The notes beneath the pieces are model-generated. The model had not been told where the DNA came from and searched no databases. It saw only the letters and a list, made by a program, of their open reading frames with translations. Below, in pieces: positions 12,870-42,031 of a stretch of DNA of 55,284 nucleotides (within the stretch, counting starts at the first letter, position 1; each line of letters opens with the position of its first letter). The stretch is from Blastocatellia bacterium (GTDB taxonomy: Bacteria > Acidobacteriota > Blastocatellia > Pyrinomonadales > Pyrinomonadaceae). The position numbers were made by a program, and so were the translations under genes. Location of the stretch: contig JACCVY010000155.1 of the NCBI GenBank assembly GCA_013697915.1, positions 1-55,284 of the forward strand, read 5' to 3'.

Positions 12870-12875
12870 TGCTTG

Positions 12876-12976
12876 GTCCAATGTCCAAAGTCCAAAGTCT
12901 TCGTTGGGTAATTTTCTGGCTTCAACCCTGAAAGTCTCGTGCCGTCACACAGACATTGGACCTTGGACTTTGGACT
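12876..12976. repeat. Inverted repeat of TCCAAAGTCCAA-type units
   Basis: GTCCAATGTCCAAAGTCC begins at 12876 and its near-inverse GGACCTTGGACTTTGGAC ends at 12976, about 50 bases apart. The units are built from 10-base GTCCAAAGTC blocks. The repeat lies between ureidopropionase and preA and ends 5 bases before the AAGGAG of preA, so it could form a hairpin in the operon message. Confidence 0.7.
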
Positions 12977-12992
12977 TCTTAAGGAGTAATTC

Positions 12993-20657: not shown

Positions 20658-20773
20658 ATCGAAATCCGTGAACCGTGAACTGTGAACTGTGAACCGTAAA
20701 TCGTAGGGGCTTCGCGATGGGCGATCCCGCTTAAGCGTTCCCGGTTTCCGGTTGACGGTTCCCGGTTCCCCGT
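20658..20773. repeat. Degenerate repeats of GTGAAC and TTCCCGG units between sufS and sufU
   Basis: The stretch holds GTGAACCGTGAACTGTGAAC-like units at about 20668-20697 and, in the opposite sense, units such as CGGTTTCCGGTTGACGGTTC around 20740-20765. Together they can fold into an imperfect stem within the operon message. No coding potential is seen. Confidence 0.55.
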
Positions 20774-22036
<1,263 letters not shown>

Positions 22037-33399: not shown

Positions 33400-33465
33400 T
33401 TGTTGTCAGATCTCACGCTTGACCTTTTTTAATTGGCAATCGCAAATCGGCAATCGGAAATGGCT

Positions 33466-34974
33466 TCAGTGTCCGCCTGCCATTAGCAGGCCAATCTGTT
33501 CAATCGTCGCAACTTTCGGATCAACGTCGCCGACTATGCGGCCCTCGTGAATGATCAGCAAGCGATCGGCGAGCGCGGTTACTTCTTCCAACTCTGCCGA
33601 GACAAGCAATACTGCGCAACCAGCATCACGCAGGGCGACCAGCTTGCGGTGAATAAACTCGATCGCGCCGATATCAACACCGCGCGTCGGTTGCGAAACG
33701 AGCAAAAGTTTCGGATGTAGCTCAAACTCGCGACCGATGATCAACTTCTGCTGATTGCCGCCTGATAACGCGCGCGCCGGCAATTCCTGATTGGTGGGCC
33801 GCACGTCGAAGTCTTCAATTATTTGTGCCGCGCGTTTGCGGATGGCCTGGTCGTCGAGAAATACACCGGCCGTCGAAACTACAGGTTTGCGGTAATGGAC
33901 GCCCAAAATCGAATTTTCTGCAAGACTGAAATCCAACAACAAGCCGCGCCGATGTCTATCTTCGGGAATGTGAGCAATGCCAAGTTCGCGTCGCGCCCGC
34001 GCGTTAACGCGGGTGATGTCGCGGCCTTCCAGTCGAATTGCGCCGGTCAAATGCGCCGCGAGTATGAGGCCGGCAAGCGCCTCAATCAACTCCGTTTGTC
34101 CATTACCCTCGACGCCGGCGATGCCGAGGATTTCGCCTTTACGTACTTCAAAAGAAACGTCATTCACGCGCTTGGTACCGTTGCTGGTCGACACAGAAAG
34201 ATTCTTTACCGACAGCTCGGCAGTCCCAACATCTGCATCCGGCTTTTCAACCCGTAGCAATACTTCACGGCCAACCATCATGCGCGCCAGCTCCGCTGCA
34301 TTGGTATCTTTTGTCGCCACCTGACCGACGACGCGACCGTCGCGCATTACCGTTACTTCATCAGAGATGGCCAGAACCTCAGAAAGCTTGTGCGTAATGA
34401 TGACAACAGTTTTTCCCTGCTGGCGCATGCCGCGCAGGATGGCGAAAAACTCGTCAACCTCCTGTGGCGTAAGCACCGCGGTCGGCTCATCGAGAATCAA
34501 CACCCGCGCATGACGATACAAAGCTTTTAACAATTCGACGCGCTGCTGCTGACCTACCGAAAGATGTTCGATAACCGCATGTGGATTAACGGCGAGCTTG
34601 AATTCTTCTGAAAGCCCCTGAATATCGGTTGTCGCCTTGTGCAGGTCAAGCGCAATTTCGCTGCCCGGCTCGGCGCCAAGCACAATATTTTCGGCTACGG
34701 TCATCGTGCTGACGAGCATGAAGTGCTGGTGGACCATGCCAATGCCAAGGGCGATGGCATCATGAGGGCTGTTAATCTGGCGCGCTTGGCCATCGACTAT
34801 GATTTCACCGCTATCGGCTTTGTAAAAGCCGTAAGCAATACGCATCGCGGTGGACTTGCCCGCGCCGTTCTCGCCAACAATGGCGTGAATAGTGCCCGGC
34901 TTAACGACAATGTTTACGTTGTCGTTTGCAAGCACGTCACCAAATCGCTTTGTTATGTTTCTTAACTCGAGCAC
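33466..34974 (-). CDS. Nucleoside ABC transporter ATP-binding protein with two nucleotide-binding domains
   Basis: The 502-residue protein is a fused two-domain ATPase of the NupO/RbsA type. Domain 1 (1-240) has Walker [12 protein letters not shown], signature [15 protein letters not shown] and [12 protein letters not shown]. Domain 2 (255-500) has a degenerate P-loop ([14 protein letters not shown]), as usual for this class, and [14 protein letters not shown]. It energises uptake through the two permeases downstream. The gene before it in transcription order should be the BMP gene, but a decayed four-helix-bundle gene is wedged between. Confidence 0.92.
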
Positions 34975-34980
34975 TGGTGT

Positions 34981-35014
34981 TGTCAGTCGTCAGTTGTCAG
35001 TTGTTAGTTGCTGG
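34981..35014. repeat. Left inverted repeat beside the four-helix-bundle gene
   Basis: Units of the form GTCAGTTG and GTTAGTTG run from TGTCAGTCGTCAG to TTGTTAGTTGCTGG. An inverted, related copy lies at 35418-35456 beyond the other end of the four-helix-bundle gene. The left copy overlaps the last codons of that gene. Confidence 0.6.
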
Positions 35015-35396
35015 TGCCTGACGAATTCGAAGTCGACTGTCGTGGCCGATGGAATTCAGATAAGCATTTAGTTTTGGCCCAAGCTCATCAATGAGAGGCT
35101 TTAGGTCTCTGACCTGTTTGGCGGACAACAGATCGCGTTTGAACGCACGTCTCAACCAGTGCTTTGACTCGTTCAGTGAACCTCTTGCGATTCGCACAAA
35201 GCGTTTATTGTCAGCGAAAGTGCCTCGGCCGGTCCCTTCTGCAATATTTGCGCCGATGCTATCTACAGCTCTCACAAGTTGTTTGCCTACGGTGTCACGA
35301 GCAAAAGGGCTCCATGCAAGCACTACGATCGAAATCATCGGAAAGTTCTTCCGACAACTTATACACCCTTAAATTCTCAAAATTGGTCCGAGCCAT
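34997..35396 (-). pseudogene. Four helix bundle protein (S23/IVS-type), frameshifted
   Basis: With AGGAG eight bases upstream, ATG 35396 opens MARTNFENLRVYKLSEELSD, the usual start of the four-helix-bundle family related to proteins encoded in 23S rRNA intervening sequences. The frame then shifts by one base at about 35330-35345, and the second frame gives IVVLAWSPFARDTVGKQLVR, DSIGANIAEGTGRG and so on to 34997. Joined, about 132 residues result, the normal family length. The gene is bounded by related inverted repeats and sits between the ATPase and substrate-binding genes of one transporter operon, which suggests insertion. Function of stand-alone members is unknown. Confidence 0.8.
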
Positions 35397-35417
35397 AATG
35401 AGTCTCCTAAGGGTGAA

Positions 35418-35456
35418 CAGCAACTGACTACTAACAACTAGCGACTAGCGACTGAC
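35418..35456. repeat. Right inverted repeat beside the four-helix-bundle gene
   Basis: CAGCAACTGACTACTAACAA followed by two CTAGCGA units and CTGAC is the inverted counterpart of 34981-35014 with a few differences in unit number. It lies 21 bases before the four-helix-bundle start (in its own sense) and ends 5 bases from the stop of the BMP gene. Confidence 0.6.
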
Positions 35457-35461
35457 CGATT

Positions 35462-36532
35462 TCATTGAATCATCTTATCCGTAACCTTAATCTCGCCGCC
35501 GATGATCTTCTTTTTCGCTTCTTCAATTTGTTGAATCATTTCCGGCGTAACCAGATTCTGGTTGTTCTGGTCCATTGCATAACCGACGCCATCCTTGTCC
35601 AATCCATAAACGTGGATGCCGGCTTGAAACTGTCCCTTGACCACGTCCTCGACAATTGAATAGACCGCGTTGTCGACCCGCTTAACCATGCTGGTGAGCA
35701 CAAAGCCCGGCTTAACCATATTCTGATTTGAATCAACGCCGATTACGAAGTGGGTGGCGGCGCCATTTTGTGTGCCGGCTTGTTCAACCGCATCAAACGC
35801 TCCCAGCCCGGAATTGCCGGCGGCAGTAAAGATCACATCGGCGCCTTTGCCGATTTGCGCCAGCGCGAGTTCCTTGCCCTTGCCCGGATTGTTCCAGGCA
35901 GAGTCAGTGACGCCTACATAGTTTTGAATAACCCTGATGTTAGGATTGACGGCGCGCGCGCCTTCTTCGTATCCGCCTTCAAACCGGTGAATGAGACCAA
36001 TGTCCATCCCGCCCAAAAATCCTATCGTGCCGGTTTTGGATTTTTTCGCCGCCAGCATGCCGACCAGGTACGAACCCTCGTGTTCCTTGAACACCAGCGA
36101 AGCGACATTTGGCAGCTCGCTTACGCCGTCAACAATCGCGAAATGAATGTTTGGATATTCTTTAGCCACGCGTTCCATGATCGGCGCCTGGGCAAAACCC
36201 ACGCCGATGATCAAGTCGTAGCCGCGCTCGGCAAACGCGCGCATGGCGGGCTCAATTGAGGTTGGGTTGCCGGGTTCGATGTCGCGCAACACAATGTTGA
36301 GCGCGGGCTTGCCGCAGGGAGTTCCGTCCGGCCAGTTACCTGTCTCGGCACACTTCACACCGGCAAAAGCAGCGGCGTTGAAAGAACGATCGTCTTTGCC
36401 GCCAATATCGAACACGATGCCGACATGAATTTTCGATTTGTCGTCGGCGCTATAACTAGTGCGGTTGCAGGCTGAACCAAACAGCGCGAGCCCTAACAAG
36501 ATTGAAACGATTAACCAAAGCGCCAACTTCAT
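35462..36532 (-). CDS. BMP-family nucleoside-binding lipoprotein
   Basis: The 356-residue protein opens with a lipoprotein signal whose lipobox is LFGSAC, making C22 the lipidated residue. The mature part is a PnrA/BMP-type binding protein: GIVFDIGGKDDRSFNAAAF, GVGFAQAPIMERVAKEYP, GFLGGMDIGLIHRFEGGYEE and VIGVDSNQNMVKPGFVLTSM. The family binds purine and pyrimidine nucleosides in the periplasm and feeds the ABC importer. Its start overlaps the pdp stop by 4 bases. Confidence 0.92.
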   Translation of the reverse strand: MKLALWLIVSILLGLALFGSACNRTSYSADDKSKIHVGIVFDIGGKDDRSFNAAAFAGVKCAETGNWPDGTPCGKPALNIVLRDIEPGNPTSIEPAMRAFAERGYDLIIGVGFAQAPIMERVAKEYPNIHFAIVDGVSELPNVASLVFKEHEGSYLVGMLAAKKSKTGTIGFLGGMDIGLIHRFEGGYEEGARAVNPNIRVIQNYVGVTDSAWNNPGKGKELALAQIGKGADVIFTAAGNSGLGAFDAVEQAGTQNGAATHFVIGVDSNQNMVKPGFVLTSMVKRVDNAVYSIVEDVVKGQFQAGIHVYGLDKDGVGYAMDQNNQNLVTPEMIQQIEEAKKKIIGGEIKVTDKMIQ

Positions 36533-38458: not shown

Positions 38459-38488
38459 ACAGAAGTCAGAAGTCAGAAGTCAGAAGTC
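38459..38488. repeat. 7-base tandem repeat at the end of ispD
   Basis: Four head-to-tail copies of AGAAGTC (one imperfect first unit) span the ispD stop codon and the gap to ispF. In the minus sense the unit reads GACTTCT and supplies the last ispD codons (LLTSDF) and the TGA. Confidence 0.75.
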
Positions 38489-39149: not shown

Positions 39150-39232
39150 AAGTAATGACCGGTGACGGAAGACCGGGGACGGAAGAAAGCCAGACTTTCT
39201 TTCTCGGTCGTCGGTCGTCGGTCACCGGTCCG

Positions 39233-41854: not shown

Positions 41855-42031
41855 CAGTGACATGAGGTCAGTACCACCTCGCGATAGCGGGTGGGTCTCA
41901 TGATTGCCAATTGTCAATTGCCGATTTTCGATTGGCACCTGACGAAAAAACCAACCGGCAATCGGCGATCGGAAATCAAAAATCCCAAGGCCCACCCGCT
42001 ACCGCGAGGTGGTACTGACCTCATGTCACTG
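41855..42031. repeat. 177-base palindromic element with 41-base arms
   Basis: The arms 41855-41895 and 41991-42031 are inverted copies with a single mismatch; the left arm begins CAGTGACATGAGGTCAGTAC. The 95-base centre is itself partly inverted (GCCAATTGTCAATTGCC and GGCAATCGGCGATCGG). It fills the gap between the VPS10/BNR gene and the lectin-like gene. The remaining part of the gap (41690-41854) shows no further structure. Confidence 0.9.

Follow-up and report, generated by a model that had tools for sequence, protein, structure and literature searches.

REPIN/RAYT systems comprise many intergenic inverted repeat pairs that are free of genes and few with a gene. The intervening sequence in the 23S rRNA of Coxiella burnetii carries an S23 gene, measures 428-444 nt and has terminal inverted repeats that form a 28-bp stem; tandem GACAGAT heptamers stand just before the start codon, and RNase III cuts at their beginning (PMC4990558). 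S23/IVP proteins (PF05635/TIGR02436) are four-helix-bundle (4HB) proteins, and 18 4HB genes have been listed in cas operons, apparently without mention of repeats (PMC3936711). Tandem heptamers dispersed between genes have been described as TAACTGA (PMC4679880) and as GGGAATC of Xanthomonas and GGGGA(C/T)T of Nostoc, of which GGGAATC forms 70-75 close inverted pairs (PMC4692102). A word search of these two papers for a four-helix gene found none. XCC0516, from the same Xanthomonas species, is a 4HB relative of solved structure (2GSC) and forms a pentamer. We searched the open-access literature for an association between 4HB genes and heptamers and found no description of it.

The DNA analysed here, referred to as the window, is a stretch of 55,284 nucleotides (contig JACCVY010000155.1) from the genome of a Blastocatellia bacterium (G000). 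Between two genes of a transporter operon it contains a feature that we consider likely to be a degenerate copy of a widespread small insertion unit, in which a 4HB (S23/IVP) gene stands between inverted heptamer arrays. The features concerned are the following.

33466..34974, minus strand: downstream operon gene, ABC transporter ATPase (PF00005), by profile match.
34979..35010, minus strand: downstream arm, in gene orientation CAACTAACAACTGACAACTGACGACTGACAAC, inverted heptamer array (Tandem Repeats Finder).
34981..35456, minus strand: putative whole insertion unit of 476 bp, 4HB gene and both heptamer arms; this slot is empty in G015 and G003.
34997..35396, minus strand: four-helix-bundle (S23/IVP, PF05635) gene, frameshifted, from ORFs and profile matches.
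35421..35456, minus strand: upstream arm, in gene orientation GTCAGTCGCTAGTCGCTAGTTGTTAGTAGTCAGTTG, heptamer array (Tandem Repeats Finder).
35462..36532, minus strand: upstream operon gene, BMP/PnrA-like substrate-binding lipoprotein (PF02608), by profile match.
12872..12979, no strand: gene-free inverted heptamer pair GTCCAAA / TTTGGAC, like the window unit but without a gene.
20660..20778, no strand: gene-free inverted heptamer pair of CCGTGAA type, from the period-7 array search.

The window gene matched PF05635 with 79.5 bits (E 2.6e-22, cut-off 33.8) and TIGR02436 ('four helix bundle protein') with an E of 1.9e-22, which bears out the IVS-type 4HB family assigned in the first-pass annotation. 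The gene starts at the ATG at 35396, preceded by TTAGGAG. This first frame is closed by a stop at 35295, and the conserved PF05635 part lies in another frame, in the ORF 34997-35338. The frameshift claimed earlier was thus confirmed, as was the position of the gene between the BMP and ATPase genes, since 34981-35456 falls in their junction and all three genes lie on the minus strand. We concluded that the window copy is decayed and, because of the frameshift, seems no longer able to supply protein. A general rule stands behind this single case, and the interest lies in this rule rather than in the decayed copy.

As read, the two arms are GTTGTCAGTCGTCAGTTGTCAGTTGTTAGTTG at 34979-35010 and CAACTGACTACTAACAACTAGCGACTAGCGACTGAC at 35421-35456, and Tandem Repeats Finder called period 7 for both arrays. 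Their heptamer is GTCAGTT with variants, inverted on the two sides of the 4HB gene; the related flanking arrays that had been noticed at first are therefore real, and of period 7. The longest inverted pair of the unit (34985-35013 with 35418-35446) has a length of 29 nt, is 83% complementary and has its halves 404 nt apart. In the predicted RNA of the unit the arms were base-paired, with a z of -3.06. Searched genome-wide with at most 2 mismatches, the pattern GTCAGTTGTCAGTTGT gave 116+90 matches and the reversed control 7+5, and hence the window arrays are beyond chance. Additional heptamer arrays in the window were seen at 33431-33461 (AATCGGA), 38460-38488 (CAGAAGT, four copies), 39157-39230 (TCGGTCG, with a 14-mer array) and 41903-41977 (ATTGCCA / CAATCGG). 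Several of these lie at or near gene junctions, and one of them adjoins the ATPase gene in the same operon.

The BMP/ATPase junction was compared among relatives and was empty or nearly so in two of them, with 15 bp in G015 and 33 bp in G003. A GTCAGTT-armed 4HB gene was present in G000 and G007, a TTGGTCT-armed one in G012, G001, G005 and G006, and one with CTTTGTA-type arms in G002, G010, G011 and G018, while G019 held a non-orthologous 4HB gene with GGTGTCG arms. An internally deleted copy was left in G017, where the arms persist and the gene is reduced to its first codons, and a 68-bp gene-free pair was found in G021. The pairing matrix of the slot members showed that both arms change jointly. 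The search for relatives lacking the unit was thus successful, and the gene does not stand at the same place in all of them: since little or nothing occupies the slot in G015 and G003, and about ten others are filled, mostly by other-armed units, the gene is not fixed there. G017 also carries a GTCAGTT-armed 4HB gene elsewhere in this operon, at the next-but-one junction, where two permease genes meet. In the tree of the window subfamily, which is poorly resolved because the 4HB protein is too short, the window gene grouped with this permease-junction gene, and the second GTCAGTT-armed 4HB copy of G000 (L016, 321-1901) grouped with the G007 gene. Repeated insertion into the BMP/ATPase operon would be the simplest reading of these comparisons; for some slot members the arms may have been replaced under a resident gene. 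In G004 and G014 (L074 and L081) the junction contained an unrelated GC-rich palindrome of 126-152 bp, and short repeats of several kinds seem able to occupy the slot.

The genome contains 12 PF05635 genes, nearly all of them beside short tandem arrays, mostly inverted heptamer pairs. Each locus has its own repeat unit, nearly always a heptamer; the units include GAGTGAT, GAGTACT, GGCAGAC, GTTTCAG, GTATCAG, GATTTCG, GATTGCC and GTCAGTT. The exceptions are L010, which is weak, L014, which has another period, and L020, which is cut by the contig end. At L016 the upstream array is about 1.2 kb away, and the end of a transposase-like gene separates it from the 4HB gene, as though an IS had inserted into the unit.

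Across phyla we obtained 80 4HB loci, spread over more than a dozen phyla, in a scan of species genomes. The query was built from three closer 4HB proteins, an alignment of seven diverse ones being too divergent, and the set therefore represents one broad subfamily. Period-7 arrays were present on both flanks at 38 of 78 4HB loci, compared with 7 of 1449 control positions elsewhere in the same loci (Fisher p 9e-47), and on at least one flank at 68 of 78 compared with 126 of 1449 (Fisher p 4e-55). When periods 3-21 were scanned, the enrichment was at 7, 14 and 21 alone. Matching inverted flanks (score at least 14) were found at 162 of the 188 4HB loci in the complete collection from many phyla, and a minority (among them L014, L105, L258, L259 and L271) had inverted arrays of 8-9 base units. 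The first-pass annotation had suggested collecting other 4HB genes to look for shared repeat ends: the kind of end and its period are shared, the heptamer itself is specific to the locus. One arm sequence common to all units was consequently rejected as a candidate. Flanking arrays of the same kind were also found at plasmid-borne 4HB genes of cyanobacteria and Riemerella; a search of a phage collection for 4HB genes gave no match.

The neighbours were co-directional on both sides for 56 of 74 4HB units and in 17 of 41 control triplets. Most of the units occupy junctions where the adjoining genes run in the same direction, near stop and start codons. In six Nitrospira the 4HB unit occupies one slot, and several units stay put for long. 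At L138 and L142 the downstream GAGTGCT array apparently lies within the first part of the coding region that follows.

The two arms of a unit match each other. Own arms paired with a score of at least 14 in 95 of 109 loci; when arms were swapped between loci with different heptamers, this score was reached in 8 of 586 combinations. A control by mismatched left and right flanks inside the cross-phylum set was dropped as unusable, because its loci share similar heptamers. Heptamer similarity was correlated with the identity of the 4HB proteins (Spearman 0.455, permutation maximum 0.117), and the correlation held for the same orientation only. Pairs sharing at least 6 of 7 heptamer bases made up 0-2% below 50% protein identity, 36% at 60-70% and 56% at 70-90%. 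Common descent of a single site accounts for some of the high-identity pairs, but pairs from different phyla also occur in the 60-70% band. Judged by these comparisons, the heptamer goes with the 4HB protein lineage, and gene and arms form one unit. This coupling points to the 4HB protein as the likely specificity factor of the unit.

Filled and empty sites were found on Nostoc plasmids. Three plasmids (53789_a, C052_D and N6) carry a unit at site A, which is empty in five; site B is filled in 53789_c and empty in seven. The flanks of filled and empty sites are about 90-99% alike, and each of the two insertions is found at a stop/start junction between consecutive genes, both of its arms being new. 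A 4HB unit was likewise present in the cas6-cas4 junction of Pseudanabaena galeata and Anabaena sp. 90 and absent from that of Pseudanabaena ABRG5-3, where a short heptamer array is seen, and of Dolichospermum. In cyanobacterial CRISPR operons on plasmids, units between cas6 and cas4 were located at 1757-2478 of L209 and 774-1551 of L325. Since such units are missing from relatives, the 4HB genes published from cas operons may have arrived there by insertion. As far as sequence comparison goes, some sites hold a complete unit where the homologous sites of relatives have none, and insertion as a unit is well supported by this.

At site A the sequence TTCTA is repeated in two of the three filled copies, possibly as heptamer sequence, and site B shares ATG. 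A gene-free AGAAGTC unit of 182 bp with unrelated filling lies inside the 4HB gene of the Nostoc N6 plasmid; the homologue of the interrupted gene is intact elsewhere, and no target duplication was evident at this unit. A duplication common to the Nostoc events (site A, site B and N6) was also sought, and none was reproducible. The expectation that relatives would reveal both the insertion and a target duplication therefore held for the filled and empty sites; a clear duplication was not found at the three Nostoc sites. The main point of the first-pass annotation, a small mobile unit, is supported, with movement read from presence and absence.

Array densities were determined in sampled stretches of genomes. 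Period-7 arrays numbered 13.5 per 100 kb in G000 and 17 in G004, with other periods there at 0-1. Close array pairs in the sampled DNA were nearly all inverted and gene-free, and in G000 gene-free pairs were several times commoner than gene-bearing ones. The gene-free heptamers matched a 4HB-arm heptamer exactly in 13 of 17 cases (1.2 expected, maximum 5 in 300 shuffles). For several gene-free units, a near relative has a gene-bearing unit at the same site, of which they are internally deleted versions; in such pairs G012 retains the gene end and G010 the gene leader. From these pairs, genes appear often to be lost by internal deletion, giving arm-only units, which would partly explain why gene-free copies outnumber gene-bearing ones. 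Because of the gene remnants and the 13 of 17 heptamer matches, the gene-free units look derived. Repeats just as frequent without the gene had been named at the outset as an argument against a mobile unit; gene-free pairs are indeed the commoner kind, in part through internal deletion of gene-bearing units. In G016 (88% complete) many arrays were found, at the highest density in the sample (L298-L302), and no PF05635 gene was detected, whereas G024 has 13 PF05635 genes and few arrays. Array number and gene number are therefore not tightly coupled.

The abundance of gene-free pairs in G000, the many pairs of G016 and the gene-free AGAAGTC unit inside the N6 4HB gene are what one would expect if the inverted heptamer pairs themselves were the mobile or self-multiplying unit, REP- or MITE-like and served by an unrelated transposase, with the 4HB gene as cargo. 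We regard this as possible, though rather doubtful, as the same gene family is found inside the pairs in many phyla, the heptamer follows the 4HB lineage across phyla, and several gene-free units hold 4HB remnants besides sharing their heptamers with 4HB arms. It is quite improbable that the 4HB gene is an old gene of the operon, around which arrays accrue by replication slippage and template switching between inverted repeats. The same slot is occupied in about ten relatives and one slot in six Nitrospira, and the arms change together, as correction of inverted repeats would have them do; against this stand the empty slot in G015 and G003, the non-orthologous gene in the G019 slot, the reciprocal filled and empty Nostoc plasmid sites with both arms new, the order cas6-4HB-cas4 in two cyanobacteria compared with cas6-cas4 in relatives, and similar proteins with similar heptamers in different phyla. 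We concluded that the filled and empty pairs largely refute a resident origin.

Arms and gene could also be kept because the stem regulates the operon through RNase III cutting or stability, movement being rare and incidental. The predicted pairing of the arms in RNA and the preference for co-directional junctions are in accordance with this, as is the cleavage of the Coxiella 23S intervening sequence by RNase III within the terminal stem (PMC4990558). Close relatives, however, gain, lose and replace units at one junction, which is not like a conserved regulatory site, and as the main explanation we find RNA processing unlikely; it can hold together with insertion. For the inserted unit itself, we see an even chance that S23/IVP 4HB genes are the specificity factors of an unrecognised class of mobile units without a transposase, each with a heptamer of its own lineage inverted at both ends, in which case 23S intervening sequences would be the members of this class that inserted into rRNA, and arm-only debris would make up much of the dispersed heptamer content of bacterial genomes.

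In such an insertion unit, the 4HB protein would recognise the heptamer arrays of its own unit in the form of a folded single strand, either a DNA hairpin or an RNA stem, and bring the unit ends together. A strand-transfer or transposase-like enzyme was looked for in the unit and none is present, the 4HB gene being the only gene; strand transfer would therefore need an unlinked or host enzyme, acting without target duplication. The unit would insert whole, mostly between co-directional genes, where an RNA hairpin may be tolerated. After transcription the arms would pair into a long mRNA stem, as in 23S rRNA intervening sequences, and with the arms so paired the unit could be cut out of the mRNA or tolerated without stopping the operon.

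Intervening sequences, dispersed heptamers and 4HB genes in cas operons are already known from the open-access literature; joining 4HB genes with heptamer arrays appears to be new with respect to that literature. It ties together three loose ends, namely the spread of 23S intervening sequences, a large 4HB family without known function and the dispersed heptamers of bacteria, and it predicts a preference of every 4HB protein for the heptamer of its own unit. The presence of 4HB genes in cas operons, where they had been taken for functional partners (PMC3936711), would have a simple reason as well. Dispersed heptamer repeats resemble the arms as intergenic tandem heptamers and differ in having been described without a gene. 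With REPINs and RAYT (TnpA-REP), the window unit shares short intergenic inverted pairs of which many are gene-free and few gene-bearing; it differs by the lack of a Y1/HUH transposase, by its tandem heptamer ends and by the 4HB fold. Avd of diversity-generating retroelements has a related four-helix-bundle fold (PMC10053308). The window 4HB protein scored 18.6 bits against NF033474 (Avd), where the cut-off is 80, so that the equivalog score was not reached, and unlike Avd the window unit has no second gene and hence no reverse transcriptase. The likeness to the 23S intervening sequences lies in an S23/IVP gene inside, terminal inverted repeats able to form a stem, and tandem heptamers. The window unit lies between the BMP and ATPase protein genes and its heptamers differ; by analogy it would work like a 23S intervening sequence, and it is not classed as one because it is not located in a 23S rRNA gene. 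The inverted heptamer brackets thus provide a handle on how 23S rRNA intervening sequences spread.
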